Below, piece after piece: positions 13 to 15,624 of a DNA stretch of 25,026 nt. Source of the DNA: a virus. The stretch covers positions 1-25,026 of the IMG/VR virus record IMGVR_UViG_3300033153_004143; one strand, 5' to 3'. Under the pieces are notes generated by a model. It saw nothing but the letters and a program-made list of their open reading frames with translations. It was not told the DNA's origin and searched no databases. The stretch's first letter is position 1. Each line of letters opens with the position of its first letter. The position numbers and the translations under genes were made by a program.

Positions 13-447
13 CTAGTCAGAATAAGCAGATGTAGTTTCGTTATAGTATCTTATTTTAAGATAGCTGGTAGGAGCACGAGCTGCGTCATTACCTGCGGTG
101 TATTCACTATCAACTTCAATATCTTCAGTAGTTATAACAGCATAAGTACCATCTTTAGCTGTAGCTCTATAAAACTTTACTTGATTATATAATATCTTGG
201 TGATTATAGTTCCTTCCTCGTGTGCATTATCAAGAGCGTCTATATTAACTGTGTTAGCCCCTGATACACTAGATATTTTTCTAATCTCTGCCCCATCAGT
301 TTTAGGAGTTCCGACAATAATATAGTCGTTAGCATCTAGTCCCTCATTGTTATAAACAGTCAAAGACGTAGCACTAGAGACAGCACGTTGTTTCATTTGA
401 GCTTTCTCTTGGTCTTCTATCTCTGGTAGTTCTGCTTTTAATAACAT
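13..447 (-). CDS. Putative virion or tail-associated protein, 144 aa
   Basis: No family is firmly recognised. The protein is beta-rich in appearance, and its C-terminal part (YLKIRYYNETTSAYSD) resembles the last strand of fibronectin-III-like modules found in phage tail and fibre proteins. It lies 14 bases downstream of a fibre-like gene in the late operon, which fits a virion role. No Shine-Dalgarno sequence precedes the ATG; the upstream stretch is only A and T rich. The gene ends in TAG, and another ATG lies 9 bases further on at positions 1-3, so the next leftward gene probably starts exactly at the window edge. The function is an inference from position and composition. Confidence 0.6.
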   Translation of the reverse strand: MLLKAELPEIEDQEKAQMKQRAVSSATSLTVYNNEGLDANDYIIVGTPKTDGAEIRKISSVSGANTVNIDALDNAHEEGTIITKILYNQVKFYRATAKDGTYAVITTEDIEVDSEYTAGNDAARAPTSYLKIRYYNETTSAYSD

Positions 448-1139: not shown

Positions 1140-1404
1140 TTCTAATTTTCTCCTTATTTACACTTGCTCTTGGATAATCATTTGTTTGTACATCTCCGTC
1201 GCTGGAGTACCATATGTCCCATTTTATTCCTGTCTCGTCCCATTTTGTTATGCCATCATCCCAGTATCTTATTTCTACATCCTGCTCTATTGATGTTGCT
1301 TTGGTTGTATCAAATCTGACTGAGCTACCTATATTTGAAGCCCTACTTGTATTTTTACCTACCATACCGCTAGACTTGTTTTCATCAATCGTTACTCGTG
1401 GCAT
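1132..1404 (-). CDS. Small unknown late protein, 90 aa
   Basis: No family is recognised. The protein is hydrophilic, with a Trp-rich middle (RYWDDGITKWDETGIKWDIWYSSDGD) suggesting a compact beta structure. It overlaps the glycosyltransferase gene upstream by 13 bases and the fibre-like gene downstream by 8 bases, so it is translated as part of the same chain. No good Shine-Dalgarno sequence precedes the ATG, which fits translational coupling. A minor virion protein is the most likely role by context only. Confidence 0.6.
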   Translation of the reverse strand: MPRVTIDENKSSGMVGKNTSRASNIGSSVRFDTTKATSIEQDVEIRYWDDGITKWDETGIKWDIWYSSDGDVQTNDYPRASVNKEKIRND

Positions 1405-2282
1405 ATAACTTTATCAGTTTCTTCTAACATTTTGTTAAGGCTGTAATTGCTACTAATGAAATCTCTGTATTCTTTTGGGTTTAAATCTCCTAAAAACATC
1501 TCTACTGCTTCGCTAGGTGTATCAAATACATAATCTCCCCAAATATCTCGTGCCCCATAGAAGTTGTGTACTATTGGTTTTAACCCCTTACACATTGCTT
1601 CAGATGTTACATAAGAAAATGCCTCTTTCTTACTTGTTAATAAATGATAGGATTTATCCTCATACCACTTATCTATATCCTCGACATACTTCTCAATCGT
1701 TACTGGTAAACCCTCACAGAGTTGCTCAAAATATTTCTTGTACCATGTCTCCATATCTTCATCTCCTAACATGTGGAGCGACCAACCTTTATCTTTTTTA
1801 AGCAATTCTCTAAGGATTATTACTGCTAAATCTGGATTTTTACCGTGCCATCTTTTTGAAACCCATGCTATCTTCTTATTCCTTGGGTTAGGATTAAAGC
1901 TAAACTTATTAACATCAACGCCACAAGGAATATGGTAGGTTTTGCAACTAATATCTCCAAGTTCATTTAATACTTTATCTTTAATGTGCTTTGCTACAAA
2001 TATTATATCATCTACTTTATTCCAGTTAACACTCTCATGGTGTCCAACCCAAGCGTCTATATCTATTATCCTTGTAACGATTCTACAATTATGTTCAAAG
2101 TCTTCTCTACTAAATGTCTGGAGGTTATTATCAACTGTTTCAAAATATGCCACATCAGCCCACCTAACCCAGTCTGGCTCATAATATGGCTGTGCCTTTA
2201 CTTCATGACCAAGGCTCTTCCAATGGTCTATCATTGGCTGGCTGAACTTGAATATATATGGGTCAAACACGCATATCTTCAT
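1392..2282 (-). CDS. GT4-like (GT-B fold) glycosyltransferase, 296 aa
   Basis: Proteins of this type transfer a sugar from a nucleotide sugar to a growing glycan or a protein, with retention of configuration. The C-terminal half has the typical GT4 donor-site features: a HIPCGVDVNKF segment near residues 117-127, comparable to the usual IPNGVD, and an E-x7-E pair at E220 and E228 within KKEAFSYVTSEAMCKG. The N-terminal Rossmann-like domain is short, so the protein is smaller than the 350-400 residues usual for GT4. It starts with a 4-base overlap of the zinc-ribbon gene. It is the last enzyme of the glycan module. The family is fairly certain; donor and acceptor cannot be read from the sequence. 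Confidence 0.85.
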   Translation of the reverse strand: MKICVFDPYIFKFSQPMIDHWKSLGHEVKAQPYYEPDWVRWADVAYFETVDNNLQTFSREDFEHNCRIVTRIIDIDAWVGHHESVNWNKVDDIIFVAKHIKDKVLNELGDISCKTYHIPCGVDVNKFSFNPNPRNKKIAWVSKRWHGKNPDLAVIILRELLKKDKGWSLHMLGDEDMETWYKKYFEQLCEGLPVTIEKYVEDIDKWYEDKSYHLLTSKKEAFSYVTSEAMCKGLKPIVHNFYGARDIWGDYVFDTPSEAVEMFLGDLNPKEYRDFISSNYSLNKMLEETDKVICHE

Positions 2283-2488
2283 TTTGGCATTTTAGGAACT
2301 CTCATTCTTAATTTATATTCCCAGTTTTTATCTGAATGATTAACGCTTTCGCTAATATTAGTTTTGTTACCACACCTAACACATTTATCATATCCTATCT
2401 GTTTTGAACCAATCCCTTTACCAACATTATAGGTTAAAAACTCATGCTTCGTTTCTTTGCCACATTTGCTACAAAATTGTTTTTTCAT
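2279..2488 (-). CDS. Small zinc-ribbon protein, 69 aa
   Basis: Two CxxC pairs, CSKC near the N terminus (residues 6-9) and CVRC near residues 36-39, predict a single zinc ribbon. The C-terminal tail is basic (RMRVPKMPK). Nothing indicates an enzyme. The gene lies 2 bases after the deacetylase-like gene and overlaps the GT4 gene by 4 bases, so it is co-translated with glycan enzymes. A role in nucleic-acid binding or as a structural partner of a neighbour are both possible; no specific function can be assigned. Confidence 0.7.
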   Translation of the reverse strand: MKKQFCSKCGKETKHEFLTYNVGKGIGSKQIGYDKCVRCGNKTNISESVNHSDKNWEYKLRMRVPKMPK

Positions 2489-2490
2489 AA

Positions 2491-3063
2491 TTATTTATAC
2501 TTGTTGTTTATATACTTTAATACTTCATCTAGGCATTCTGTATCCTCTGGGTCGTGGTCATGGAAATACATTGTATTAAACTCATCAAATCTTTTATGAC
2601 CTTCTGGGAAATCCATAGAATCCTTCCCTTCAACTATATGGTCTTTATAATACCATTTCATCGGTAGGTTCTCGTTGCTAATCTTTATCCCTAGATTATC
2701 ACATGCTTTTTTTGTCGTTGCATCAGTATGATTCCAAGGTGGATAGAATACTTCTGGTCTTTTGCCGAACAGCACATTAAACCATAGACAACAAGCTGAT
2801 AACTCTGCAAAGGATGTTTCAAAGTCTAGCAGACCGTATTTAACGTGTCTCCAGCCGTGAAGTTGAATATCATAGTTATCTTCCTCTAATAGATACTTGA
2901 CTATATCCTCTTTAGGCCTCCATTGTTCATTGTGAAAGAACTGGATATTGACAGTATGAGTAATGTCATACTTTAGAAATGGCTCGTGAATCTCTTTATA
3001 CTTTTTTAGGTCGTGGCGAAAGTCGAAATCGTCATGCCTAATTACTACATTTTTATCCATCAA
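2491..3063 (-). CDS. Polysaccharide-deacetylase-like (NodB/CE4-type) protein, 190 aa
   Basis: CE4 enzymes remove acetyl groups from N-acetylated sugars with a metal held by Asp-His-His. The matching motifs are all visible in order: RHDDFD (residues 9-14) for the TFDDG motif, HGWRH (H69, H73) for the H-x3-H metal ligands, YPPWN (107-111) for the RxPxW-type groove, and FHDHD (167-171) near the C terminus for the last His motif. The second Asp of motif 1 and both His are present, so activity is plausible. At 190 residues it is a minimal version. It overlaps the GT2 gene upstream by 11 bases. Its substrate may be the glycan built by its neighbours; this is inference. Confidence 0.78.
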   Translation of the reverse strand: MMDKNVVIRHDDFDFRHDLKKYKEIHEPFLKYDITHTVNIQFFHNEQWRPKEDIVKYLLEEDNYDIQLHGWRHVKYGLLDFETSFAELSACCLWFNVLFGKRPEVFYPPWNHTDATTKKACDNLGIKISNENLPMKWYYKDHIVEGKDSMDFPEGHKRFDEFNTMYFHDHDPEDTECLDEVLKYINNKYK

Positions 3064-3811
3064 TTAACTCCTCCCACTTCTTATATCTTTCTTCTTCAGA
3101 AGAATCATTAGAAAACTTTCTCATGTGATATACATGTGGTACCTGTTCTACCTCATTAGCAATATGAACTGCTTTGTATGGTTTTCTTGGTCGATGTATC
3201 TCGCTGGTCTCTAATTGCTTGCAGAGACAGGCTCCTGTTCCCCAATGTCCCCCAGCAACAGAATAAATAAAATTAGAAAAACTCAATCTAGCATATCTTC
3301 TCAGTGGCTCCATATTCCATAGGGCAAAAGAGGGACTAATCCATGAATAATTTATTTTGCCATTATTGTCACAAAAGAAATCGCCTATCGTTGCTCCTAC
3401 TGAATAAATATTTTCTGAGTCTTTATTAAACTCCTCCAAATATTGCTCTATACTTCCCTCTTCAGTAATTCTTATATCACTATCCATTGTTAACATTAAA
3501 TCAGTCTTAACATGAGGTAATACTCTATCAAGAGTAAAGCCATGACCCATATGATTCTTGAACAACAATAACTGAGTATTGGGAAGATTTTTTAATTTCT
3601 CTACATCAAGGTCTTTTCTCTCTTTAGCATTATGAGCATCCCTATTGTACGCAGAGTTATAAACCTCATGGCCACTTTCATCTAGTGTCCCATCATCAGC
3701 TAGAATAACCTTAATATCAGGATAATACTTATGAAAATTAACTACCGCACCTCTTGCTAAACGACAAGCCATCCAATTACAAATTACGCAGGTTATATCA
3801 CTTTTGTCCAT
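3053..3811 (-). CDS. GT2-like (GT-A fold) glycosyltransferase, 252 aa, CNWM type
   Basis: The GT-A nucleotide-binding half is visible: the N terminus DITCVICNWMACRLARGAV, an ADDG turn (residues 38-41), and the metal-binding DSD (110-112) after the hydrophobic strand TDLMLTM. The C-terminal part contains VAGGHWGTGACL, which may be part of the acceptor site. The N terminus closely resembles that of the gene at 5965-6600 (shared CNWM and a following AV-x2-F), so the two are probably paralogues from a duplication within the module. It overlaps the methyltransferase gene upstream by 14 bases. The family is likely; the sugar transferred is unknown. Confidence 0.78.
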   Translation of the reverse strand: MDKSDITCVICNWMACRLARGAVVNFHKYYPDIKVILADDGTLDESGHEVYNSAYNRDAHNAKERKDLDVEKLKNLPNTQLLLFKNHMGHGFTLDRVLPHVKTDLMLTMDSDIRITEEGSIEQYLEEFNKDSENIYSVGATIGDFFCDNNGKINYSWISPSFALWNMEPLRRYARLSFSNFIYSVAGGHWGTGACLCKQLETSEIHRPRKPYKAVHIANEVEQVPHVYHMRKFSNDSSEEERYKKWEELIDG

Positions 3812-4361
3812 GTACTGCTATCATTGAATGTTTATTTCCCTCGTAAGCGAAGGATATATCTAAAATCTTGTATTTTCCCATTATCTCTAATATTGGCTTT
3901 CTATGTGATTTACAACACTCACCTCCACTACACAAGTTTGTTCCATGGCCACCTTGTCCGAAACCCTGCCCATCTTGGTAACCTGGGTAAACTATTAAAG
4001 CTCTGCCATCTGGTTTAAGCATTCTATAAATCTCATCTGCCATTTCCTGAGTATAATCTAGAAACTCATATACTCCTATCATATAGATACCATCAAACCT
4101 ATCACTTGGTATTTCTGGACACTCCTGTATATCAGCTGTATAGGTTGGGTTTAAGTTGGAATCTTTCTCTAGTGTTTCAAACTTGCAAAGTCTTTCGACA
4201 TTATTAAACAGACTGCTATAATCCCAAAATATGTGCGTTCCTATCTCTAAAATCCTATCCCCACTTTTAAAGGTTCTAGCGAACTCTGGCATTTTCTTTC
4301 TGTTAAGAAATTCTCTACCAGGCGTAATAGTCTTACTAAAATTGTGATAATAATCCATCAT
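3798..4361 (-). CDS. Class I SAM-dependent methyltransferase, 187 aa
   Basis: The Rossmann-type methyltransferase pattern is clear: motif I GDRILEIGTH (34-43), a post-I acidic strand around FETLEKD, motif IV-like DRFDGIYMIGVYEFL, and the helix-strand EIYRMLKPDGRALIVYPG typical of Methyltransf_11 proteins. A loop GQGFGQGGHG followed by CSGGECC is unusual and may bind a metal or the substrate. It starts inside the preceding methyltransferase gene (26-base overlap). In this context it may O-methylate a sugar, but a protein or small-molecule acceptor cannot be excluded. Confidence 0.8.
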   Translation of the reverse strand: MMDYYHNFSKTITPGREFLNRKKMPEFARTFKSGDRILEIGTHIFWDYSSLFNNVERLCKFETLEKDSNLNPTYTADIQECPEIPSDRFDGIYMIGVYEFLDYTQEMADEIYRMLKPDGRALIVYPGYQDGQGFGQGGHGTNLCSGGECCKSHRKPILEIMGKYKILDISFAYEGNKHSMIAVHGQK

Positions 4362-4902
4362 ACTTTACTACTTGGCTCAAGCCTTTATTTTCTATTAATC
4401 TATCTTTATCGAAACTTTCGTCTATTGCCCTTTTCACTTCATCTAGGTTATTGTAATCGTGGAAGATGAAATGTCCGCTTACATATGTTTTCCACCTATC
4501 TATCTCTTTCTTAGTATGTTCATATTCATGACTTGAATCTATATTGACTAAATCTACTCTTCCTGGTGGTTCGAACTTTAACGAATCATCTATTAATATT
4601 TCCAAGTTTTTGATTTGGTACCTTTCTTTTATATCACTCAATTTTTTGATATATTCATCATCTGTACCCATTTTCTCGTGGAAGTTCCCGTGTCTAAAAC
4701 TATTTTCTCTTACATCTAATGATATAACCTTTGATGATGGGCTTGCTAATGACAGGATAAATGCTGAAAACCCTGTACCAGTTCCAAAATCTACTATCAA
4801 TCCATCTTTTACCTTAGAAGCATACTTGACAAGCAATTCTCTATCACCTGCTGATATGTTAGATGATAACTGTTCTTTGAATAATTCTTCTATCTTGCCC
4901 AT
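4336..4902 (-). CDS. Class I SAM-dependent methyltransferase (Methyltransf_24-like), 188 aa
   Basis: Motif I is GLIVDFGTGTGFSAF (34-48), followed by the acidic strand KVISLDVREN. The stretch DLVNIDSSHEYEHTKKEID then WKTYVSGHFIFHDY matches the pattern of Methyltransf_24 enzymes, in which the D-x-x-H-x-Y region and the later HDY coordinate a metal for O-methylation. Relatives often act on sugars or on rhamnosyl and cephalosporin-type acceptors. It overlaps the kinase-methyltransferase fusion by 13 bases, making three methyltransferase domains in a row. The fold is secure; sugar O-methylation is an inference from family and context. Confidence 0.82.
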   Translation of the reverse strand: MGKIEELFKEQLSSNISAGDRELLVKYASKVKDGLIVDFGTGTGFSAFILSLASPSSKVISLDVRENSFRHGNFHEKMGTDDEYIKKLSDIKERYQIKNLEILIDDSLKFEPPGRVDLVNIDSSHEYEHTKKEIDRWKTYVSGHFIFHDYNNLDEVKRAIDESFDKDRLIENKGLSQVVKYDGLLSQF

Positions 4903-5984
4903 ATCACTGGCCTATTGAATAAATCTTTTGTTTCCCCGACTTCATTAACCTCTTCAAAATTTCTCTTAATCTCTTTAATAATTTTTTCATCATCATCTCT
5001 ACAATTACCTTCATATATTAATAAATCTTTAACAAACTTCTTTACGAAACTCGGATAACCTATATGCATACCCATAGATAGGAACAATACTATATCGAAT
5101 TTATCAATCCCCACCATATCTGATATTGTCTTATGGGTAGCTTTTTTCAGGTCAACTCCATAGTAATCTATATTGAAATAACCTAGGAAGTTAGATAATT
5201 TTCTGGCAGTATCTGCTCGTTCTGGTAGTTCTAAACCAACAACTCTTTTTGCCCCTTGTTCTTCAGCATAATTGCAGAACGCTCCAGCAGAACAACCAAT
5301 ATCTAATACTGTTTTGCCCTCGAAATCTATCTTATCGAGACCTAATGCTTTTATACGGTGCTCGTTATCTCGTCTACCTTTTAACTCTATCTCTGGAAAC
5401 TCTTGGTAGCTTCCTGGAGGGTGCCAGTTACATACTCCATCAACTTCTTTTCTCAATACATCTTCATAATCATCTTTGAATCTAAAGCTTTGGAAATCAA
5501 TCCATTTACCATCCATTTCATTTTTCACTCTCCAATCGTGGTAATATATCTTAATACGATTTTCAGTGGCTATAGTTTCAATTTTACTCATAATCTCTTT
5601 AGATGGTTCAGCATGCTGTTGTATTTCATTCTCCTCTCCAAACTTTCCAAGATAATCGGTAACGTGTGCCCAATAGTCATTTACTCTTATTATCCCATAT
5701 ACCCTTGGTGCCAAATCATTTATCCAGTAAATGTTCTGTATTTTCGTTGCCTCAAGTAGTAGTGAACCATTTTCATTACTAGGTCCCCACCAAGCCTTTT
5801 CTATATCATCAGACTTTTCTCTCATTACCTTTAGACAAATTTTATCCCTGTCAAAATCGTTCTTTATCTGTCTCAACCCTTTGGTATAAATAAACGAATG
5901 GACACCATTACCATGAATATGTAGATTATGCCTTTTTATCTGGTCTGGCTCTTCTAACCTAATCTTATACTGGCGAATGTTCAT
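4890..5984 (-). CDS. Kinase-like domain fused to a SAM-dependent methyltransferase, 364 aa
   Basis: The N-terminal half (about 1-175) looks like a degenerate protein-kinase-like fold: a strand ICLKVMR offering K52, a helix with E78, a segment WINDLAPRVYGI, a hinge-like HVTDYLG, then YYHDWRVKN (D150, N155) and WIDFQSF (D163) in the places of the catalytic HxD...N and DFG motifs. The C-terminal half (about 210-364) is a class I methyltransferase with motif I GKTVLDIGCSAGAF (223-236) and acidic GLE about 20 residues later. Kinase-methyltransferase proteins such as WbdD of E. coli O9 cap polymannose O-antigen with methyl phosphate; the domain order there is reversed. The methyltransferase call is strong, the kinase call moderate, the capping role speculative. 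It overlaps the upstream GT2 by 20 bases. Confidence 0.75.
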   Translation of the reverse strand: MNIRQYKIRLEEPDQIKRHNLHIHGNGVHSFIYTKGLRQIKNDFDRDKICLKVMREKSDDIEKAWWGPSNENGSLLLEATKIQNIYWINDLAPRVYGIIRVNDYWAHVTDYLGKFGEENEIQQHAEPSKEIMSKIETIATENRIKIYYHDWRVKNEMDGKWIDFQSFRFKDDYEDVLRKEVDGVCNWHPPGSYQEFPEIELKGRRDNEHRIKALGLDKIDFEGKTVLDIGCSAGAFCNYAEEQGAKRVVGLELPERADTARKLSNFLGYFNIDYYGVDLKKATHKTISDMVGIDKFDIVLFLSMGMHIGYPSFVKKFVKDLLIYEGNCRDDDEKIIKEIKRNFEEVNEVGETKDLFNRPVIWAR

Positions 5985-6600
5985 AGTAATAATTTATTGG
6001 GAACTCTTTAATTGAATATCCTCTCGTTCTTAGCTCGTGTACATATCCTGTCCCAGCTTCTAACCCAGTTCCAGAAGGAACTTTATCATTGTACGGGTGG
6101 AAATATATTATTTCCCCATCATCAGTATATTGGATAGACTTGAAACTTAGTTTGAACTTTCTTGCTAAGTCTGCTCTATACAAAACTGCGTGGTTAGATA
6201 TCTTAGGAAAATCACTATGTTGTGTCTTACCTAATCCTACCGCTGATACCATTTCTTCTGGTATCATTTTCTCTAAAAAACCGCCTTTTTTAAATATTAT
6301 GTCCGAATCAAATAGGAAAAACCACTTAGTATTTATATGTTTCACTCCCTCGTTTATTGCCCCACCATGACTAAGATGTTCTCCACAATCTACGAATTCT
6401 CCTAAGTCTTCCAACTTAGAAGTATCCAAATCAATATCGGACGGCCTACTAGAAAAATATCCTCCAGCTATAGAATTGTTAGGACCATCATTAACTATGA
6501 TTAAAGGTACGTCGCTATAAAATTGCCTAAAACTGTTAACAGCATTTTTTGTACGTTCAGCAGTCATCCAATTACACACCATCGCTGTTATGTCATTCAT
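5965..6600 (-). CDS. GT2-like (GT-A fold) glycosyltransferase, 211 aa, CNWM type
   Basis: The N terminus DITAMVCNWMTAERTKNAV is followed by a strand ending in IIVNDGP (34-40) and the metal-binding DSD (98-100) after KWFFLF. A further acidic segment YTDDGEIIYFHPYND may contribute to the active site. It is a short GT-A domain with no membrane segment, so a cytoplasmic enzyme. It shares its N-terminal pattern with the protein at 3053-3811 and is probably its paralogue. It overlaps the upstream GT2 gene by 8 bases. Sugar donor and acceptor are unknown. Confidence 0.78.
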   Translation of the reverse strand: MNDITAMVCNWMTAERTKNAVNSFRQFYSDVPLIIVNDGPNNSIAGGYFSSRPSDIDLDTSKLEDLGEFVDCGEHLSHGGAINEGVKHINTKWFFLFDSDIIFKKGGFLEKMIPEEMVSAVGLGKTQHSDFPKISNHAVLYRADLARKFKLSFKSIQYTDDGEIIYFHPYNDKVPSGTGLEAGTGYVHELRTRGYSIKEFPINYYYEHSPV

Positions 6601-7345
6601 ATCCCTTTACCTTGTCTGGACTGGGAGGGATATGTGAAACCTCATTATGACCATGGTCTTCTGGCCTGCACTCCTTTGGATAACCCCACGGGTCTGTTTC
6701 ATTATTTCCAAATAAGTGATGACATTTCACATTTCTCGCCCAACCTACTTTATATCCTCTTTCTCTTATCTTTTCTGATATATACAACTCTTCATGTCCT
6801 CTTTTTTGTCTAAACTCTTCGCTATCTATTTCTTCTAAATTGTCTCTCCAACCACCTATATCTTTAACTAATTTAGTATCCATTATCCTGCAATAACCAG
6901 GAACGTGTCCATACTCAACAATATCGTCTTTCTCCCCCTCGAATATATTTCCTGAACCTATAAGTATTTGTGGTCTTAATGCTATAGCCTTGTATTCTTT
7001 ATTTTTGTCCATTAAATCTACTAGTCTGCCTAACCACGCTTTCTCTGGCAAGATATCGTTATCAGTAGAAACGTGGTACTTTGTTTTAACATAATCTAGT
7101 CCTACATTCTTAGCATATTCTAGCCCATAGTTTTTCTCTAATAGCATTAGCAAGTCTAGCTTTTTGTTTGAATACATATCCCATAGTAGTTCTTTTGTTT
7201 CTTTATCACTACCATTATCAATAACTATAAGTCTATGTGGCCAGCCAGTATTATTTTGTATAGCTTCAATACTTCGTCTAGTAAAATCTGGGCGGTTCCA
7301 GGTAATCATACTTATGTCAACTGGTCTAATCTTCTTTTTGCTCAT
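6593..7345 (-). CDS. Family 2 glycosyltransferase, 250 aa
   Basis: A typical GT2 sequence: DISMITWNRPDFTRRSIEAI at the start, the nucleotide-binding VIDNGSDKET (41-50), the segment NYGLEYAKNVGLDYV, and DND (95-97) as the DxD metal site. The region GHEELYISEKIRERGYKVGW matches the ED-x-D/L-x-R acceptor-base region of GT2 enzymes. No transmembrane segment is present. The start overlaps the dehydrogenase-like gene by 20 bases. This is the most canonical glycosyltransferase of the module together with the one at 8045-8800. Confidence 0.88.
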   Translation of the reverse strand: MSKKKIRPVDISMITWNRPDFTRRSIEAIQNNTGWPHRLIVIDNGSDKETKELLWDMYSNKKLDLLMLLEKNYGLEYAKNVGLDYVKTKYHVSTDNDILPEKAWLGRLVDLMDKNKEYKAIALRPQILIGSGNIFEGEKDDIVEYGHVPGYCRIMDTKLVKDIGGWRDNLEEIDSEEFRQKRGHEELYISEKIRERGYKVGWARNVKCHHLFGNNETDPWGYPKECRPEDHGHNEVSHIPPSPDKVKGYE

Positions 7346-8045
7346 AATCTTCTAATATTTTTAAATACTTATGTGGCATACTTTTACTTAACATATCTCT
7401 ATTAGGTATCAGGCAATGCCCACCTATTTCTTTGCTTTCTGGTGGGTCCAAAATGTATCTCTTGAACTGCGGTAACCCTAACTTAGAATACAGGATGTTG
7501 TAATCTATGTCGTATTTCTGATTATAGTTATATGGCATTCCTAACTTCTCTGACCATTCCCCCTCCATCTCTGCCCAAGCTATATTCCATAGATACTTTG
7601 TGGTACTTCTCAACTTTAGATATTCAGTAAATCTCGAGTCTGCCAACGATATTACTCTCATGTCAGCTTCTCTAAAAAATTTTTCTGCTAGAGCTAACGA
7701 CAGTTTATCTTTACAACCCAACCATCTTCTCCACTCTTTCATAGATGTTTCTAGGTTTGGATGTTTCCCTTCAATCGGAGAATGAATAACATTTTTCCCT
7801 ATCTTTCTGCAGGTACCAATATCAGTTGTAGAATGTACAATAGTTATCGTCGGACTATATTCATTTATATACTCTTTAGTAATTTCAACAAACTTGTCAG
7901 AGTATGGATAACAAATATTCAATACATCTATATCTTCATCAATTTCTATCTGTTCAATATCTCTTTGAAACACCTCGTGATAATCAGATAAATATTCTGC
8001 TAATGCTGACCCAATTTCTCCCGTGCCAATAATTAATGTTTTCAT
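7326..8045 (-). CDS. Short UDP-sugar-dehydrogenase-like NAD-binding protein, 239 aa
   Basis: The N terminus has a dinucleotide-binding Rossmann motif GTGEIG (7-12). Near the C terminus the segment GGHCLIP (208-214, C211) resembles the GGHCIPVD/GGSCFPKD motif that holds the catalytic Cys of UDP-glucose and UDP-ManNAc 6-dehydrogenases, which oxidise a nucleotide sugar to its uronic acid. Those enzymes have about 400-430 residues in two Rossmann domains and a helix; this one is little more than half that, so the C-terminal UDP-binding domain appears to be missing. A prephenate-dehydrogenase-like or 6-phosphogluconate-dehydrogenase-like oxidoreductase is the alternative. It shares a 1-base overlap with the GT2 gene upstream. 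NAD binding is likely; the reaction is uncertain. Confidence 0.65.
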   Translation of the reverse strand: MKTLIIGTGEIGSALAEYLSDYHEVFQRDIEQIEIDEDIDVLNICYPYSDKFVEITKEYINEYSPTITIVHSTTDIGTCRKIGKNVIHSPIEGKHPNLETSMKEWRRWLGCKDKLSLALAEKFFREADMRVISLADSRFTEYLKLRSTTKYLWNIAWAEMEGEWSEKLGMPYNYNQKYDIDYNILYSKLGLPQFKRYILDPPESKEIGGHCLIPNRDMLSKSMPHKYLKILEDYEQKED

Positions 8046-8800
8046 CAGTCTTTATCTTTAAACTCCTCTTCACTACTTCGAGGATATACTTTATATAATG
8101 CTGTCTTTAATGGTTTGCTATGGTGCTTCCTAGTTAGGTAGTAGAATTGACAGTAGTCATCGCCCCACGGGTTACCAAGTGATATTCCTATTATCAACTC
8201 GTTATCTTGGAATGCCTCTGGGTAATCTTCTCTTTTCATTGGTATACCAGAATTAGCTGCAAATTGATAAGGACTTTGCTCTTCTGGTATCCACATATCT
8301 TTGTCTTCTAGCAATTCTCTTTTAAAGATGAACATTCCAGTTCCGATATTACCATTAGGAAACCACTCATGCCCAATCTTTTCTTTTTTTGGGCTGAAAG
8401 GTTCGGATGGCTTTATATGGGTATCCTCTGGATGACAAATTAGATGTCTAGCATTAAAAACTGAATAATCTGGGTAACTCTTTATTGCTTCATCAAAAGA
8501 TTTTAAATAATTAGTAAGGTACTCATCATCACTATCCATCCAACATATCCATTCTCCTTCTGCCTCTCGCATCCCTCTATTCCTAGATATAGCACGCTGT
8601 TTCGTTTCTTCGTTTGTAATAATTTTTATTCTTGATTCGTGCTTTGCTAGAGACTTGAGAACATTTGGAGTTTCATCGTCGCTATAGTCATCAACAACAA
8701 TTAACTCCCAATCTTCAAAATGTTGGTTTATAACACTGTTTATCGCCCTAGCTACTCTTACTGGGCGATTCTTAACTGGTAAAATAATACTGAATTTCAC
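8045..8800 (-). CDS. Family 2 glycosyltransferase, 251 aa
   Basis: Canonical GT2 domain: FSIILPVKNRPVRVARAINS at the start, QHFEDWELIVVDDYSDDET (26-44) for nucleotide binding, the AISRNRGMREAEGEWICWMDSDD segment ending in the metal site D89-D92, and a later EDYPEAFQDNELI region that can supply the catalytic base. It is the first enzyme of the glycan module and joins directly (1-base overlap, TAATG type) to a virion-like gene upstream, which couples its expression to structural genes. Family assignment is secure; sugar and acceptor are not known. Confidence 0.9.
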   Translation of the reverse strand: MKFSIILPVKNRPVRVARAINSVINQHFEDWELIVVDDYSDDETPNVLKSLAKHESRIKIITNEETKQRAISRNRGMREAEGEWICWMDSDDEYLTNYLKSFDEAIKSYPDYSVFNARHLICHPEDTHIKPSEPFSPKKEKIGHEWFPNGNIGTGMFIFKRELLEDKDMWIPEEQSPYQFAANSGIPMKREDYPEAFQDNELIIGISLGNPWGDDYCQFYYLTRKHHSKPLKTALYKVYPRSSEEEFKDKD

Positions 8801-9192
8801 TATGCTAATCTTATTTTTACTGTGGCCGTATCTCCAGAAGCGTTTGTAATATAAATGTCATTTACTTCTATATGAGGTGTATCCATCACACTTTCATTTG
8901 CGTCTAGTGATATTGGGTCATTATCATCTTCATTGAATCTGATTGTGATATCTGTATCAGTTCTAACTTCTGTAAAGTAGGCCTTATCTATATTGTTAAA
9001 CACATTACCACTCGTCTTATAACTATCTGAATCGGTATTTAAACTATACTTAGAAGTTCCAGTTGGTATTGAAAACTCAGCAGAATCATATTTCTTACCA
9101 CCAATTTGGACAACTGCCATAGCTCCTTGTCTGCCATCAGTGTTTTTACTAGTCTTTCCTAATATCCTGCTTAGATAGTCAATTTCAAACAT
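8800..9192 (-). CDS. Small virion-like protein, 130 aa
   Basis: No family is recognised. The protein is rich in Asp, Ser and Thr with short alternating strands (TDITIRFNEDD, IEVNDIYITNASGDTATVKIRLA), the look of a small beta-sandwich, often found in phage head or head-tail joining proteins. It is flanked by another such protein and by the first glycosyltransferase, with 1-base overlaps on both sides. A structural role is inferred from composition and position. Confidence 0.6.
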   Translation of the reverse strand: MFEIDYLSRILGKTSKNTDGRQGAMAVVQIGGKKYDSAEFSIPTGTSKYSLNTDSDSYKTSGNVFNNIDKAYFTEVRTDTDITIRFNEDDNDPISLDANESVMDTPHIEVNDIYITNASGDTATVKIRLA

Positions 9193-9524
9193 TATTCAAA
9201 AGTATAATTTACTATAATTAGGTAATTGCTTCCAGCTGCTGTAGTAGCGTCCATTGATAATACTTCGTCTGCAGCACCATCTATTGAAATCGCCCCAATC
9301 TTATAATGATTCTTGTTAGCTGCCATATAAAACTTAGCAACAGTATTATTAGAAGTAGCAAATTTTAGTGTCACGGCACCAGAAGTAGCTTCGCTTACAC
9401 AAAAGACATCCTTAACACTAACATATTTTCCAGTAGGTGGGGTGATAAGCGTTTCATCAGAAGCTGGGCTGTCAAACTCAACAGTATGACTATCATCGAA
9501 GTGGTGTTTTGGTGTAATTCTCAT
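9192..9524 (-). CDS. Small virion-like protein, 110 aa
   Basis: Unknown family. The sequence has repeated short strands, ending in SNYLIIVNYTFE, and a central GAVTLKFATSNNTVAKFYM. It looks like a beta-sandwich protein of a phage particle. A clear Shine-Dalgarno sequence (AAAGGA) precedes the ATG, and a strong hairpin lies just upstream (9541-9571), so translation of the long overlapping chain restarts here. The functional call is based on context only. Confidence 0.6.
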   Translation of the reverse strand: MRITPKHHFDDSHTVEFDSPASDETLITPPTGKYVSVKDVFCVSEATSGAVTLKFATSNNTVAKFYMAANKNHYKIGAISIDGAADEVLSMDATTAAGSNYLIIVNYTFE

Positions 9525-9579: not shown

Positions 9580-10395
9580 CTATGGTGCTGTAGTTGTTGA
9601 TGTAGATGTTGAAGAAGTTGACGAACTAGTAGAACTAGTTGAAGTCGAACTTGTTGAAGATGAGGTTGAACTGGTTGAAGAAGAAGTAGAAGAGGTAGAA
9701 GAAGAAGTTGAGCTAGTTGAAGTGGATGTACTTGTTGACCAAGTATGATTCACACCCTCATTTAGTCCCCATTCATCATAAATATACGCAAAAATGTATG
9801 GTGTAGAACCATCTGGTGTATCATCAGGAGTTACATAATTCTTTTCTATATCTACTTCGTGCTCTACTACTGTTGGTTCAGAAGTATTTAGTGATACATT
9901 AGCTGCGTCGTCGTAGTATGTTATTTCCCTAACGGTTGTTTGGTTAGGATATAACCTATGAAACAAACCCAGCTTGTCAGTAGCACCAATCGAAAAAGTA
10001 GCAGCTGCTCCATCCTGTTTTGGGATAGAAATTAAGGTTACTGTTTTAAAAACCTTAGTACCCTCAACAGCTGTGGAACCATTCTCAGCAAAAGTAAATG
10101 TATCAGTAATAGTCTTATTCTCTACATTAGTTCCAGTGATAGTAATATCACAAGCGGACACATCTGCAGTTGTTCCACCAGGAGTAACTTTAAGTACCCT
10201 TGGGTGGTCTGGGTCAGTGATTGAAGTCGAAACTGCAGTTACAGCAGAACTAGAACCAGTGATTGCAGCATGAATAGCAGTTGCTGATGCAGCTGCCACT
10301 TCAGGAACCTTTGTAAAGCCAGCACTAATCTTCAATAGTGATTTCAAATTTGAAGCGTTGTCTACTCCCCAAATCCATCTATTAAAATTTTTCAT
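9580..10395 (-). CDS. Virion-like protein with Ser/Thr-only C-terminal tail, 271 aa
   Basis: Residues 1 to about 215 form a domain with many short strands and Thr/Val-rich segments (for example GTNVENKTITDTFTF), followed by an aromatic-rich linker ending in NHTW. The last 52 residues (9583-9738) consist almost only of Ser and Thr in SSTS-like units. The first domain recalls head-fibre or capsid-associated proteins; no exact family is recognised. It follows the capsid gene and precedes the glycan genes. A disordered Ser/Thr tail is a natural acceptor for O-glycans, so this protein may be a target of the neighbouring glycosyltransferases; that is inference. No Shine-Dalgarno sequence is evident. 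Confidence 0.65.
   Translation of the reverse strand: MKNFNRWIWGVDNASNLKSLLKISAGFTKVPEVAAASATAIHAAITGSSSAVTAVSTSITDPDHPRVLKVTPGGTTADVSACDITITGTNVENKTITDTFTFAENGSTAVEGTKVFKTVTLISIPKQDGAAATFSIGATDKLGLFHRLYPNQTTVREITYYDDAANVSLNTSEPTVVEHEVDIEKNYVTPDDTPDGSTPYIFAYIYDEWGLNEGVNHTWSTSTSTSTSSTSSSTSSTSSSTSSTSSSTSSTSTSSTSSSTSSTSTSTTTAP
9583..9738 (-). repeat. Imperfect tandem repeat encoding Ser/Thr tail
   Basis: The DNA consists of degenerate 9-15 base units (GTTGAA, GAAGAA and AGTAGAA variants on the plus strand) that read as Ser and Thr codons in the leftward frame. Ser codons vary between copies, so the amino-acid pattern is kept while the DNA is not a perfect repeat. Length variation by slippage is to be expected. 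Confidence 0.85.
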
Positions 10396-10529: not shown

Positions 10530-11441
10530 TTAGGCGTTATCGCCAGTAGAACCGTAGAAGCCTCTCCAGTCGGTCCAGCCAACTGAAAATCTCATTCGAG
10601 ATTTGTATAGAGCTTCTCCAGTGTCTTGAGCAGTGTCTTGTTCGAATGTAGGTTTAATTCTCCATAGGTATAGTAACCCGTTTTTAGAAGAATCCATCAT
10701 GAACCACGCTGTGTTAGAAGTTAAGTAATCCAAAACAACTATGTCAAACATTCCCTTAAAGACATTAGTATCATTGTTAGCAGTTCCAACTCTACCAGAA
10801 GATTTCATAAGTATCATTGCCTCTTTTTCAAGGGCAGGAGGTACTACAATCTTATCTGGTTGAACTAAAACTTTCTGACCTTTGTCATCTAGGGTAGCTC
10901 TCATAGTTACCTTAGCAGCCTCAATAGAGTCTTCGTCTAAATCGGCAGTAACGTAGTTGTCTTGTACAGCTCCACCATCAGCTCTTGGATGAGAATCACT
11001 ACATAAAGCGACAGCATCACCAGCAGTAAAAGCAGCGTTTCCACCACCACCACTAGTAAAGGCGTAATTGAAAACATCAGCAGCAACTGTTTCCTGAGTT
11101 CGTCTAGCAGAAGTAGCTAGAGAGCCAGGAACTTTGCCAATAATGTTATATTGGTCGTCTTCATATAGTTCTTCTGTTACTTTGACAGCTTTCTTCCAAG
11201 ATTTGTGTGACAAGGTTGTATCATAACCTTGTGTAGGGTCTTCATATGGATAGGTACCACCTTCTGAAACTTCTTCATAAATTCCGACTTGAGAAACAGA
11301 AGAATATTTCTCGTCTTGTTTATCAGAAGTTTCAATATTGAACACTTGTGTATACTGCTCAGGAAGGTCCTCAAGTCTTTTGAAAAAGACCTTTCGAAAC
11401 CCAGGTTCTAGTATATCTCCGAAACTTGACCTTTTTGCCAT
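10530..11441 (-). CDS. Major capsid protein, Mu gpT-like, 303 aa
   Basis: The protein builds the icosahedral head shell. The sequence pattern is that of Mu gpT-like HK97-fold capsid proteins: an N terminus with FGDILEPGFRKVFFKRLED, a central AFTAGDAVALCSDSHP, then LVQPDKIVVPPALEKEAMILMKS, NVFKGMFDIVVLDYLTSNTAWFMMD and the C-terminal YKSRMRFSVGWTDWRGFYG. At 303 residues it matches the usual size. Scaffold and decoration genes directly precede it. No separate head protease gene is visible here, although Mu-type heads usually have one. Only a weak GGGA precedes the ATG, which is odd for such a highly made protein. Confidence 0.88.
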   Translation of the reverse strand: MAKRSSFGDILEPGFRKVFFKRLEDLPEQYTQVFNIETSDKQDEKYSSVSQVGIYEEVSEGGTYPYEDPTQGYDTTLSHKSWKKAVKVTEELYEDDQYNIIGKVPGSLATSARRTQETVAADVFNYAFTSGGGGNAAFTAGDAVALCSDSHPRADGGAVQDNYVTADLDEDSIEAAKVTMRATLDDKGQKVLVQPDKIVVPPALEKEAMILMKSSGRVGTANNDTNVFKGMFDIVVLDYLTSNTAWFMMDSSKNGLLYLWRIKPTFEQDTAQDTGEALYKSRMRFSVGWTDWRGFYGSTGDNA

Positions 11442-11460
11442 TGTATTTCCCGATTAGTTA

Positions 11461-12003
11461 TTAGTCTTGTGTGTATGGGTCTAATGCCGATTCAGCTATA
11501 CGAAATAGCCCTTCTGACATATCTGACTCATTGTTAGGGTCAACTTCCATAAGTTGAAATGCCCCAACAGTTGTAGAACCACTTTGGTCTTTGATTTGGT
11601 CCTCATCAGTAATATCAAAAAAAGTACCTACTTCAGCTTCAGTCATAGCACCAGCAGCATCGTTATAAAATAACGCATCTTTGCTAACTATAATCTGAGC
11701 CTGAACTTTCATAACAGTCTCATTATCAGAAGCAGCAACATAAGTTTCTACACCAACTCCACCTTCAGTATATGTACCATCTAGTGAGTAGCCAGTGTTA
11801 GTCAAATCGATACCATCTTTGTCAACAAGACCTATAACAATACCCAATACAGCATCACCATCATCAGCAGGAGTGACATAACCACTAGTTAAGTCAACAG
11901 CATCACCAACGGTGATTGTTGCACTGTCATAAATAGTTCTTGTCCAAAATCCTGGTGATTGGTTTCCGCCAGTTAATTGTTCTTTGTATTCAAATCCAGC
12001 CAT
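11461..12003 (-). CDS. Putative capsid decoration or stabilising protein, 180 aa
   Basis: The sequence has the pattern of small beta-barrel proteins made from genes next to phage capsid genes: TITVGDAVDLTSGYVTPADDGDAVLGIVIGL near the N terminus, a middle MKVQAQIIVSKDALF, and VGAFQLMEVDPNNESDMSEGLFRIAES at the end. It lies between scaffold and major capsid genes. A role as a head decoration protein is likely. The ATG has no Shine-Dalgarno sequence; the preceding 25 bases are AT-rich. Confidence 0.72.
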   Translation of the reverse strand: MAGFEYKEQLTGGNQSPGFWTRTIYDSATITVGDAVDLTSGYVTPADDGDAVLGIVIGLVDKDGIDLTNTGYSLDGTYTEGGVGVETYVAASDNETVMKVQAQIIVSKDALFYNDAAGAMTEAEVGTFFDITDEDQIKDQSGSTTVGAFQLMEVDPNNESDMSEGLFRIAESALDPYTQD

Positions 12004-12017
12004 GTTAGTAAATTAGT

Positions 12018-12767
12018 TTAATTGATTATACCTTCTGTATACTCATCATCAGTCAAACCGAGCTTCTCAGCAACCTTTTTTTGGTCATCACTGAGTTCGA
12101 CCTTTTTACTCGGTATATCCCTAGACGAACCAGAAGATATTGAGCCTTCTTTATTTTTTTGAACATCAGCTTGTGCTTTTAGAATTGCATCGTCGTTTCC
12201 AGCTACGATTTTGTAAGAGTTTTCAAGAGCTTGTTTCATAGGAAAACCTTGTGCTCTATAAACTTTTACATGTTCTTCCATAGCTTTCTGCACATCTTCT
12301 TTAGCAGCAGCAGGATTTGCGTCTAAGAAATCGTCGATATCCTTCTCTGTGACGGTATTCTCAAGATAATCGAGTCTTTGTCTTAATACATCAACTGATA
12401 CACCTTCTGCAGTTGTGTCATCTGTTGGCGTACTCTCTTTCTCTTCTGTTTCAGATTCCTTTTTAGAAATCCTCTTTTTCAGTTCAGCAATCTCTGTGCC
12501 TTGCTGGGAAATCTTCTTCTCAGCTTCACTGTAACTTTTGCTCAAGTCATCATTAGATTTGAATTTCCTAAGCGATTCTTTCGCCTTAGTCTTCTCTTCC
12601 TCTGATGGTTCTGAATCAGATTCTTCCTCGGGCTCTTTTTTGGAATCATCTTCTTCACCTTTTTCTTCAACCTTTTCCTCGGGCTCTTCTGAGGGGGTTT
12701 CTTCGGATTTTCCTTCTTCTGAAGTTTCTTTTGAATCTTCTTTTGTAGGGTCCTCTTTCTTAGTCAT
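12018..12767 (-). CDS. Scaffolding protein, 249 aa
   Basis: The first 60 residues are almost only Glu, Ser, Lys, Asp and Pro, strongly acidic and disordered. Residues from about 65 to 130 form heptad-like coiled-coil segments (AEKKISQQGTEIAELKKRIS, DVLRQRLDYLENTV), followed by a helical part and a short C-terminal domain with QKKVAEKLGLTDDEY. This layout and the position just before decoration and capsid genes are typical for phage scaffold proteins, which shape the procapsid and then leave it. A strong Shine-Dalgarno sequence (AAAGGAG) lies 5 bases before the ATG. Confidence rests on composition and synteny. Confidence 0.78.
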   Translation of the reverse strand: MTKKEDPTKEDSKETSEEGKSEETPSEEPEEKVEEKGEEDDSKKEPEEESDSEPSEEEKTKAKESLRKFKSNDDLSKSYSEAEKKISQQGTEIAELKKRISKKESETEEKESTPTDDTTAEGVSVDVLRQRLDYLENTVTEKDIDDFLDANPAAAKEDVQKAMEEHVKVYRAQGFPMKQALENSYKIVAGNDDAILKAQADVQKNKEGSISSGSSRDIPSKKVELSDDQKKVAEKLGLTDDEYTEGIIN

Positions 12768-12821
12768 TTTTCTCCTTTGGGGCCTTGTAAGGTTATCCCA
12801 ATATATTAATTATGAAATACA

Positions 12822-13130
12822 CTATTTTTTATCTTTTCTCTTAACAGCTTTATATTTACTTCTGATTATCCTTTTTATATATAATAACGCACCATATTTA
12901 CCCTTGTTGAAGTATAAATCTTTTAAGATTTCTTCATCGGTTCCCTTAGCCATCATAGTTGCTATACCCGCCCTTATCATACCTTCCTCGATAATTGATT
13001 CAAATCTTTTGAATTCTTCTGAAGTTGCCAAGTCTTTTATTGAATCTTTCTCTACATCACTCATTCCTTTCTCTACTTCAATCAAAAGTTGGTCTTCTTT
13101 TTCCCTAGTTGTTGGTTCGTTATACTTCAT
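12822..13130 (-). CDS. Unknown helical protein, 102 aa
   Basis: Not recognised. The protein is mainly helical and charged, with a basic C terminus (KRIIRSKYKAVKRKDKK). It lies directly after the gene at 13131 with no spacer and before the scaffold gene. Genes in this place often code for small head-assembly or DNA-packaging accessories, but nothing in the sequence proves this. Confidence 0.6.
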   Translation of the reverse strand: MKYNEPTTREKEDQLLIEVEKGMSDVEKDSIKDLATSEEFKRFESIIEEGMIRAGIATMMAKGTDEEILKDLYFNKGKYGALLYIKRIIRSKYKAVKRKDKK

Positions 13131-13448
13131 TTAAAATGGCTTATTTTTTTCTTCTTCTCTTCTTTCTTGTATATCTTCCTCCATATCTCCTCGATATGGT
13201 TTTGACTCTTTATCTCTCAATGCCCTATATTCATCTGCAAGGGCTTGAATTGTATTAACTAATGATTGTGCTAGTGGTTCTTTGCCGTCAAGATATCTCT
13301 TCTTGGCTGAACCAAGTATCTCATTAACAAGCTCCCATTCAGTCTCTCTCTTCCCTCTATCTCTTTCAACTAGCACTGGGTTGTCAGGATTTCCTTTAAC
13401 ATCCTCTGGTTCTTCTTCTTTGGTAATTGTTATTTTAAAATTATCCAT
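13131..13448 (-). CDS. Unknown charged protein, 105 aa
   Basis: Not recognised. The first half is acidic and Pro-rich, the middle is helical (ETEWELVNEILGSAKKRYLDG, AQSLVNTIQALADEYRAL), and the end is a mixed-charge helix rich in Glu, Arg and Lys. It overlaps the portal gene by 8 bases and abuts the next gene. The place suggests a small morphogenesis factor; there is no direct evidence. Confidence 0.6.
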   Translation of the reverse strand: MDNFKITITKEEEPEDVKGNPDNPVLVERDRGKRETEWELVNEILGSAKKRYLDGKEPLAQSLVNTIQALADEYRALRDKESKPYRGDMEEDIQERREEEKNKPF

Positions 13449-15624
13449 TTTCGCTTGGTGCTACGTTTGGTGCTGGGGTAGCAGGAGTATTACCAGGCCC
13501 AGTCATTGCCGCTTGGTTTGGGTTTACAGGACCACCACCGTTCTTTGCTTGCTCTGCCATCTGCATCATCTCCATTTGTTTTTGCTTCTCACCCTGTAGT
13601 ATTTTTACTTCATCATCAATATGTCTAGTAATATTGGCATAAACTTCTGAATCCTCTTGAATATTGCCATAATTTAGACCTGCCTCTAGCAATTCTTGAT
13701 GTTCCTGGATATGTTCTTCTGTTGGTTGTTCGTTTGGTGGTACTTCTTCGTCGTTTAATAGCCCTGTGAATTCTTCCCTAGCTTCCTGAATCTTATCAGC
13801 AATAGATTCTGCTCCAGTCATAACATCATCTGGATTAACTTCGTGTGCTTTCAACCATTTCTTGGTTATATTTTCTGGTGTAATAGTAGGATTCTGGATT
13901 GCTCTGTCATATAGTAAATCCCATCTCTGTTGGTTGTATGCCTTTGATATTGGCATTGACTCTATCTCTACTTCGACATCTAACTTTGCCCTAATAAGCT
14001 CTGGCTCAACATCGAAAAATGAATATCCTGGTATCTCTCTAACAGCCACTCTATCCCTACCATTTTCTTTCTTCCTAATAATCTCCTTGCCATCTAATCT
14101 TATAGAACGGTATTTCTGTTCATATGGTTGGTTATTTACTTCCAAGTATCTTCCCTCATCACGAATTTCCTCCATATATTCCTTACTCAACTCTTCAGGA
14201 GTTATTCTTTCTAACTGAGGTTTTGAATAATACTGTTGGATTGTAGATAGTCTAAGTTTGAATAATCTTGCTAGTTCTTCTTTAACACTATTGAAGTGAT
14301 GTCTGATACGTTTTAACAGTTCTTCTTTCCTTATTCCTTCCGCGGTCGCACTAACATCTGATTTCAATTCCATTCTAGGTTCTATCCCAGTAGCAACAAC
14401 AATATCATCTTTTAATCTGTCTTCTTCTAAATATGCTGATTGTTTGGTATCTGAGTATTCTAGTGGTTTGAATTGGCTTACATCCCCACCTACTTCGATA
14501 TGGCCATGTGGTCTAGGCACTAAATCCTCTTCAGAGATACTTATATTGTCTCCAATTAGAAACATCTTGTGAATAGACATATGAGCATTATCCAATCTCA
14601 TTCTTCTAATAGTATTCAACTCTTCCTGCTGAGATTCTAGTATTTCTGGTAATCCAATGCCATAGAAATAATTTGGTCTTTTAACAAATGTAATCTTAGC
14701 AAATGGAAGTTCCTTGTGGTCATATATGTTTGGTCCATTTCTTAACAGTACATCATTACAAACAATAATTAATTTATCTTCTTCTCTGTTCCAGTACCAT
14801 AGCATTTCTACTTCATCATCATTGATTCCTTTTGGTGCTTTGTAAAATTCATATCTGCTAGTATCACCACCAGAAATGACATATTTAGAATTCTCGTATT
14901 CTTTCCCGTATAGTCTTTGGAAAGTATTTGCTGAGATAATATATCTTCTGATACAATCTCTAGCAGCCTTAGGACCATCAAAATCATCAGCAGCTTCATC
15001 AATGTAGAAATCTCTTATATTTACTGATTCAGCATAGACATCATCAAAATCTGTCTGTTCGTATTCTTTATACTCTTGAATATCCTTGTTCTTATCAAAC
15101 TTAACCAAATCTTTTAGAATTCTTCTCTCACTCTTCCAGTATTCCTGTAAAATCCCAGTGCCAAAGATACAAGCACTCTTTTCAGCTTTCTCATATTCAG
15201 TCTTGAAGTTACCTTTACTCATAGTGTATTCTACTATGTGTTTAACTAAATCTGCTTTGGCGGCATCATCTTCTTCAACTGGCTTGAATAGCGGGCCGAA
15301 TGACTGTTCTGAAGCATCTGACATAACTGACTCAACCAATGAATAAGCCATTGGAACAATAATCTTGCTTCTCCAGTCTCCTTCTTTTCTCTCTGGTTGT
15401 CTGCCCATATATAACTTTTCCCAACTGTCCCAATCATCTTCAAAATTTGTTGGTGCACTTTCTCCACCTAGTCTAAATGACTTCATGTCTGAGTATCGCT
15501 GATAGACTGCCCTTATTACCTTAACCTCTTCCTCAGTGGGAATATAATGGCTCAGAGCATCGTCTTCCTTTTTGTAGGTTTTTAAAACGTCTTGGTATGT
15601 TTTAACCTTTTTGGTTTCACTCAT
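13441..15624 (-). CDS. Portal protein, 727 aa
   Basis: Portal proteins form the dodecameric ring at one head vertex through which DNA enters. The sequence shows the expected layout: an N-terminal helical part with FEDDWDSWEKLYMGRQPERK and IIVPMAYSLVESVMSD, a central wing and stem with YGIGLPEILESQQEELNTIRRMRLDNAHMS, a conserved-looking VVATGIEPRMEL, and a C-terminal helical tail that ends in a Gln/Met-rich and Pro/Asn-rich stretch. At 727 residues it is of the large type seen in P22-like phages. It overlaps terS by 8 bases and precedes scaffold and capsid genes. The Pro-rich last 45 residues are probably disordered. Confidence 0.85.
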   Translation of the reverse strand: MSETKKVKTYQDVLKTYKKEDDALSHYIPTEEEVKVIRAVYQRYSDMKSFRLGGESAPTNFEDDWDSWEKLYMGRQPERKEGDWRSKIIVPMAYSLVESVMSDASEQSFGPLFKPVEEDDAAKADLVKHIVEYTMSKGNFKTEYEKAEKSACIFGTGILQEYWKSERRILKDLVKFDKNKDIQEYKEYEQTDFDDVYAESVNIRDFYIDEAADDFDGPKAARDCIRRYIISANTFQRLYGKEYENSKYVISGGDTSRYEFYKAPKGINDDEVEMLWYWNREEDKLIIVCNDVLLRNGPNIYDHKELPFAKITFVKRPNYFYGIGLPEILESQQEELNTIRRMRLDNAHMSIHKMFLIGDNISISEEDLVPRPHGHIEVGGDVSQFKPLEYSDTKQSAYLEEDRLKDDIVVATGIEPRMELKSDVSATAEGIRKEELLKRIRHHFNSVKEELARLFKLRLSTIQQYYSKPQLERITPEELSKEYMEEIRDEGRYLEVNNQPYEQKYRSIRLDGKEIIRKKENGRDRVAVREIPGYSFFDVEPELIRAKLDVEVEIESMPISKAYNQQRWDLLYDRAIQNPTITPENITKKWLKAHEVNPDDVMTGAESIADKIQEAREEFTGLLNDEEVPPNEQPTEEHIQEHQELLEAGLNYGNIQEDSEVYANITRHIDDEVKILQGEKQKQMEMMQMAEQAKNGGGPVNPNQAAMTGPGNTPATPAPNVAPSENG

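Follow-up and report, generated by a model that had tools for sequence, protein, structure and literature searches.

A glycosyltransferase module in the late gene block of an uncultured phage and its probable link to mucin-like Ser/Thr tails on virion proteins

Evidence for glycosylated virions exists for only a few phage systems, namely mycobacteriophages, whose structural proteins are glycosylated (Freeman et al. 2023, cited in PMC12619734 and PMC10955285). In both capsid and tail-tube subunits the C-terminus is the glycosylated part (PMC12619734), and one mycobacteriophage carries two glycosyltransferases (PMC10955285). In Gram-positive bacteria, clusters of the Fap1-type serine-rich-repeat adhesins encode a Ser-rich repeat acceptor beside the transferases; sugars are added singly to the protein before export, the first step being conserved and the later ones variable (PMC5207161). 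The E. coli O9a chain terminator WbdD is a kinase-methyltransferase that caps the glycan with methyl phosphate (PMC3482155).

The locus described here lies in a 25,026-base IMG/VR fragment, analysed as a whole and called the window below, for which a DNA similarity search against 50,697 phage records gave no near match. As in mycobacteriophages, glycosyltransferases are encoded in the phage genome (no sequence comparison underlies this likeness). However, there are five of them in the window, and the modules of its relatives comprise 10–20 genes with a deacetylase, a dehydrogenase and several methyltransferases. Furthermore, the putative acceptors are dedicated mucin-like tails on accessory proteins encoded beside the capsid protein rather than the capsid protein, in which no Ser/Thr tract was found. 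As in Fap1-type clusters, a Ser/Thr-rich putative acceptor adjoins soluble glycosyltransferases; in the phages, however, the putative acceptors are virion proteins with many unrelated folds and no secretion step is needed. Searches with the core GT4, the 430–460-aa enzyme that usually opens the modules of relatives, revealed no kinship to Gtf1/Gtf2 (GtfA/GtfB), a pair that the window also lacks.

Upstream of the module, the window encodes a terminase, a P22/SU10-like portal and a gpT-type capsid protein, identified by Pfam and PHROGs matches. Searches of phage records by tblastn with the products of genes 4890–5984 and 7326–8045, the core GT4 and the product of 9580–10395 found no real homologue, and direct searches of viral contigs with the first two of these proteins gave no relative. 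Relatives were therefore sought through the major capsid protein (10530–11441; Phage_capsid_4, E 1e-24; phrog_371, major head protein), which served as the anchor and yielded 84 further viral contigs. Among these, L011, with 72% capsid identity, shares the window's head genes and carries a related module. A host search with the capsid profile returned only three MAG contigs (‘uncultured bacterium’, Acidimicrobiia and Myxococcales) and no usable host.

The module consists of eleven overlapping genes (1392–8800) on the minus strand, as are all features given here. It opens with a conserved core GT2 glycosyltransferase with a GTG start (8045–8800; PF00535, E 5e-33), homologues of which are carried by 11 relatives at 33–64% identity. 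This gene is followed by a short relative of nucleotide-sugar dehydrogenases (7326–8045; 64% identity in L011), a second conserved core GT2 (6593–7345; PF00535, E 2e-15) with homologues in most module-bearing relatives, a third GT2 missing in L011 (5965–6600; PF00535, E 2e-6) and a two-domain protein with a kinase-like N-terminal and a SAM methyltransferase C-terminal half (4890–5984). Two SAM methyltransferases come next (4336–4902, Methyltransf_24, E 3e-7; 3798–4361, Methyltransf_23 and _11, E 2e-7), then the fourth GT2 (3053–3811; PF00535, E 3e-5), a NodB-type polysaccharide deacetylase (2491–3063; PF01522, Polysacc_deac_1, E 4e-7), a zinc-ribbon protein (2279–2488) and, as the last gene, a GT4 glycosyltransferase (1392–2282; PF00534, E 1e-11; 60% identity in L011). 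All four GT2 matches are above the curated cut-off. Catalytic motifs are intact: DXD in each of the four GT2s, EX7E in the GT4, HDD and HxxxH in the deacetylase, and GxGxxG and GGHC in the dehydrogenase relative.

A sequence-only reading of the window had listed these eleven ORFs, and their places held, as did the four GT2s, the GT4, the three methyltransferase domains and the deacetylase, supported by Pfam and motifs. Its zinc ribbon found only fragment matches, none above the cut-off; a 42% identical homologue lies directly before the GT4 in L011. Its nucleotide-sugar-dehydrogenase-like protein, below the Pfam cut-off when searched alone, held only through a family profile: built from 13 homologous module proteins, it matches UDP-glucose and GDP-mannose dehydrogenases with E down to 2e-27. 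Like these 6-dehydrogenases, the phage family keeps the NAD-binding Rossmann and central domains with the catalytic Cys region. Unlike them, its members are only about 240–275 aa long and terminate soon past the Cys motif, the profile match ending near residue 300 of the 400–490-aa solved enzymes, and the C-terminal nucleotide-sugar-binding domain is missing across the family.

The kinase-like domain claimed in the same reading has motif support only. Its signature (K52, D150, N155 and D163 of the 4890–5984 product) is invariant in three homologues; neither a sequence search nor a clear fold match confirmed the kinase half, so that a kinase remains a possibility inferred from sequence alone, with its fold unconfirmed. 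The methyltransferase half is supported by both Pfam and a fold search. A glycan-pathway protein that joins two such halves recalls WbdD, which appeared among the fold-search matches (4azt). However, the phage protein has the reversed domain order and no coiled coil, and the match to 4azt most likely reflects its methyltransferase half.

Two small conserved late genes precede the module: 9192–9524, with homologues at the same place in L011 (two copies) and L003, and 8800–9192, which is 75% identical in L011 and overlaps the first module gene by one base. Homologues of the latter also follow the capsid gene in L022 and L045, both without a detected glycosyltransferase. On the other side lie a small late gene (1132–1404) and a further late gene (462–1139), each with a homologue in L011, and then 13–447. 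The product of 13–447 corresponds to the N-terminal part of the relatives' SU10-type head-tail adaptor proteins (25–34% identity to the N-termini of proteins of about 400 aa); in one such protein whose N-terminus matches it, SU10_adaptor was detected in the C-terminal part (E 2e-13). An uninterrupted overlapping chain from 9192 to 1132 with a single 2-base gap had been proposed, and recomputation of the junctions upheld it: neighbours overlap by 1–26 bases everywhere except between the deacetylase and the zinc ribbon. Beyond this chain, 14 bases separate the genes at the next junction (462/447), and no terminator-like site was found on the module strand. The claim of virion genes on both sides also held, with portal, terminase and capsid genes upstream and head/adaptor genes downstream. 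Fibre genes, expected on the left flank, were not shown there; this flank is inferred to be the head/adaptor side.

What the earlier reading missed is the probable acceptor. The first gene after that of the major capsid protein (9580–10395) encodes a virion-type beta-domain protein with capsid-adjacent homologues and a mucin-like C-terminal tail. This tail is an uninterrupted tract of 50 Ser/Thr residues (residues 220–269, bases 9589–9738), written in nine different Ser/Thr codons and followed by Ala-Pro. A structure model predicts a folded beta domain (residues 1–210) and a disordered tail (211–271), an arrangement that would fit a display protein. A fold search with this model gave only uncharacterised phage proteins and no significant match in the PDB, and thus no named fold. 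We consider it likely that this product accepts the glycan through its tail, which is an inference from sequence alone, no glycan having been observed. Since the contig stops near base 1, the window shows a single tail.

Homologues of the tailed protein in relatives can be aligned up to their last residues. Those of L011, L003, L028 and L033 end in the same kind of tail, and those of L031, L032, L043, L048 and L005 stop in the alignment just where the tails of the former begin. Glycosyltransferases are present in tailed L011, L003 and L028, and the L033 contig is cut off soon after; the five relatives with untailed homologues have none above the cut-off.

The sequence-only reading had proposed a search for this gene set in related phages, and a module was indeed found at the same place in relatives, between the capsid and adaptor genes. 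L011 keeps the start of the module (GT2, dehydrogenase, GT2, kinase/methyltransferase) and its end (zinc ribbon, GT4); the middle differs, its methyltransferase and deacetylase-like genes being different ones and two of the GT2s being absent. In more distant relatives, modules of up to about 20 genes occupy the same insertion point. They usually open with a GT4 of 430–460 aa and the short dehydrogenase, followed by GT2s, methyltransferases and GT4s; DegT aminotransferases also occur in the modules of L019 and L014. Other relatives found through the capsid protein have no glycosyltransferase above the cut-off.

Tails in the relatives are mostly C-terminal and nearly pure Ser/Thr, and they are carried by one to three proteins before the module and up to six after it. 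The 58 tail-bearing proteins form 10 clusters according to their non-tail parts and are encoded on both flanks of the module, never inside. In other module-bearing relatives, between one and three small proteins from another family carry the tails after the capsid gene, and contigs extending past the module have tails also on larger proteins around an SU10-type adaptor gene. The longest tract, in a protein encoded after the module of one relative, spans 763 residues, of which 748 are Ser or Thr. Many tracts draw on all ten codons for Ser and Thr, the two Ser codon families alike, and DNA-level repeats within them are degraded. Such broad codon use points to selection on the residues and not on a DNA repeat. 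The virion location of the tailed proteins is inferred from gene position and a few PHROG virion matches.

Tails and glycosyltransferases occur together. Among the 52 records with at least 3.7 kb of sequence downstream of the capsid gene, the window included, 18 have both, 34 have neither and none has one alone (Fisher p-value 2e-14). Only the first batch of records was searched for GT4, and two members of the ‘neither’ group, L049 and L008, have a GT2 match under the cut-off. Because records with the trait group together on the capsid tree, this p-value overstates independence; the tail requires at least nine changes, and only 2–4 independent pairs are available, all in agreement. In seven relatives tails are present but no glycosyltransferase was detected; all seven are contigs that end 0.9–3.4 kb past the capsid gene.

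Genes, motifs, gene order, the co-occurrence of tails and enzymes and the absence of detected membrane segments are shown. On this basis we favour the view that the module O-glycosylates mucin-like Ser/Thr virion tails by a self-contained, soluble, stepwise cytoplasmic assembly line, which is likely. Glycosylation itself, the initiating enzyme, the order of steps, the sugars, the chemistry and the benefit are inferred. The acceptors would be the tails on several unrelated virion proteins, in the window that of the 9580–10395 product. A soluble transferase would add the first sugar to Ser/Thr; the likeliest candidate in the window is the conserved GT2 8045–8800, and in most relatives the role may fall to the 430–460-aa GT4 that comes first in the module. 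The remaining GT2s and the GT4 would lengthen the chain, the truncated dehydrogenase would oxidize a sugar to a uronic acid, and the deacetylase would expose an amine. Finally, the methyltransferases would cap the chain, perhaps with a WbdD-like phosphate and methyl step by the 4890–5984 protein. The predicted product is a bottlebrush-like glycan coat on head-associated proteins and, in relatives, also on adaptor-proximal ones, probably serving in shielding or adhesion. The profile of the GT4 of about 440 aa matched no solved chain at E 1e-3, hence no solved protein O-glycosyltransferase, and the GT2 profile matched polypeptide GalNAc-transferases only weakly, ranked behind polysaccharide enzymes.

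The first alternative is that the module alters the host surface polysaccharide, blocking superinfection or changing the receptor, like the GtrABC serotype conversion of temperate phages. In its favour, the phage families closest to the first GT2 are annotated in PHROGs as GtrB-like O-antigen conversion, and deacetylases, methyltransferases and dehydrogenases occur in envelope pathways too. However, no convincing membrane segment was found among the 159 module ORFs of eleven phages or the 25 window genes; three hydrophobic stretches passed the threshold, and by eye two of them are methyltransferase nucleotide-binding motifs and one is an N-terminal extension of a called ORF. Unlike GtrABC systems, the module thus lacks the flippase GtrA and membrane-anchored transferases, which makes surface glycans that are lipid-linked and flippase-dependent less plausible and favours soluble stepwise glycosylation. 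The embedding of the overlapping module genes within the late virion block and the exceptionless co-occurrence with virion Ser/Thr tails in the informative records also speak against this alternative, which we regard as unlikely. A multi-step glycan on the particle rather than on the host was the preference of the sequence-only reading; co-occurrence, flanking tails, insertion point and the lack of membrane segments support that direction, and sugars on the tails remain inferred.

It is also improbable that tails and enzymes, though both virion-related, do not form an enzyme–substrate pair, the tails serving merely as flexible spacers and the enzymes modifying different residues or different virion proteins. 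Many unrelated viral contigs have long Thr-rich linkers without glycosyltransferases, and the clustering on the capsid tree leaves room for this explanation. Against it, within the homologous family of the 9580–10395 protein a tail is never seen without the module (apart from L033, whose contig stops early), no informative family member has a tail without a glycosyltransferase, and the tails are mostly terminal, nearly pure Ser/Thr, borne by several unrelated proteins and flank the module. The weakest alternative, hypermodification of phage DNA, can draw on known phage glycosyltransferases acting on modified bases (Pyle 2024, cited in PMC12619734) and on the weak resemblance of one methyltransferase to a phage DNA methyltransferase profile, but it is very unlikely, given its poor fit to the late-operon position, the many glycosyltransferases per module, the deacetylase and the Ser/Thr tail link, and given that neither a thymidylate-synthase/hydroxymethylase-type gene (PF00303) nor TET_JBP (PF12851; a search in which no positive control gave a signal) was detected in any of 17 records, all of them fragments.

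Returning to O-glycosylation of the tails, phage virion glycosylation as such is already known, and the apparent novelty lies in the mucin-type acceptor tags, their placement on both flanks and a pathway of 10–20 genes. No description of mucin-like phage tails, of their flanking placement or of a pathway of this size was found in the open-access literature searched, which is weak evidence of novelty. A bolder reading, which could as easily prove wrong as right, would see here the first mucin-type glycoprotein coat of a bacterial virus, with modular Ser/Thr tags on many unrelated virion proteins served by one fast-diversifying pathway of 10–20 genes that gives each lineage its own particle glycan serotype. 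The analysis suggests a variable glycan coat on some environmental phages, a feature more familiar from large eukaryotic viruses. With an acceptor readable from sequence, the substrates of phage glycosyltransferase clusters can be tested for directly, and the soluble module enzymes could be co-expressed with a short tagged acceptor.

A blind scan of viral contigs for Thr/Ser codon runs at the DNA level, using a pattern with fixed ACN codons, gave 48 usable contigs. GT2 matches above the cut-off were present in 16 of them, as against 4 of 50 random contigs, which were mostly longer. Many other scan contigs have internal Thr-rich linkers and no glycosyltransferase, and a Ser/Thr run alone therefore does not imply glycosylation. 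Three of the scan contigs (G096, G099 and G126) proved to be further members of the capsid family, with 3–6 GT2 domains each.

The UDP-sugar dehydrogenases that lack a C-terminal nucleotide-sugar-binding domain form one family of short proteins, comprising the products of 13950-14720 in the viral contig L019, 14127-14894 in the contig L015 and the remaining rows of alignment A2. The corresponding gene is placed early in the glycan module and is conserved in most of the relatives. These short enzymes might oxidise sugars already attached to the glycan.

Six proteins bearing mucin-like Ser/Thr tails are encoded after the module in the contig L086 (record G007). One of them, a virion-region product of 967 residues (10642-13545), has a tract in which 748 of the 763 residues are Ser or Thr. 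The N-terminal part of two other tail-bearing products, L086 13547-15004 and 3057-3983 of the contig L088, was judged by eye to resemble a domain of the LamG/concanavalin type. The two products share a match to PHROG 21223, a family of unknown function, and the L086 product also matches, weakly, a virion structural family. Large Ser/Thr tracts were also noted in two phages that lie beyond the window's phage family or on its margin, L145 (record G112, a very large contig of 223,954 bases) and L144 (record G111), which carry one and four GT2 domains, respectively. These may represent a separate, independent use of such tracts.

Matches to the product of window 13-447 are confined to the N-terminal ~140 residues of the relatives' proteins. 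These counterparts run on into the SU10-type head-tail adaptor domain; the window version is ended by a stop codon, and the adaptor of this phage could consequently be encoded by its own gene beyond the contig end.

In L016 and L087 (record G008), the capsid gene lies ~16 kb from the glycan module and on the opposite strand, an arrangement that none of the other relatives read shares. The genome may have been rearranged, or else the contig was wrongly assembled.

The product of window 22084-22614 resembles, on reading, a single-strand-binding protein; its Pro/Gln/Ala/Thr-rich region is encoded by near-perfect 21-base tandem repeats. In L011, the closest relative, the portal gene is present as two ORFs (2862-4718 and 4781-5071), both matching the window portal; a frameshift, a sequencing error or another interruption could each account for the split.
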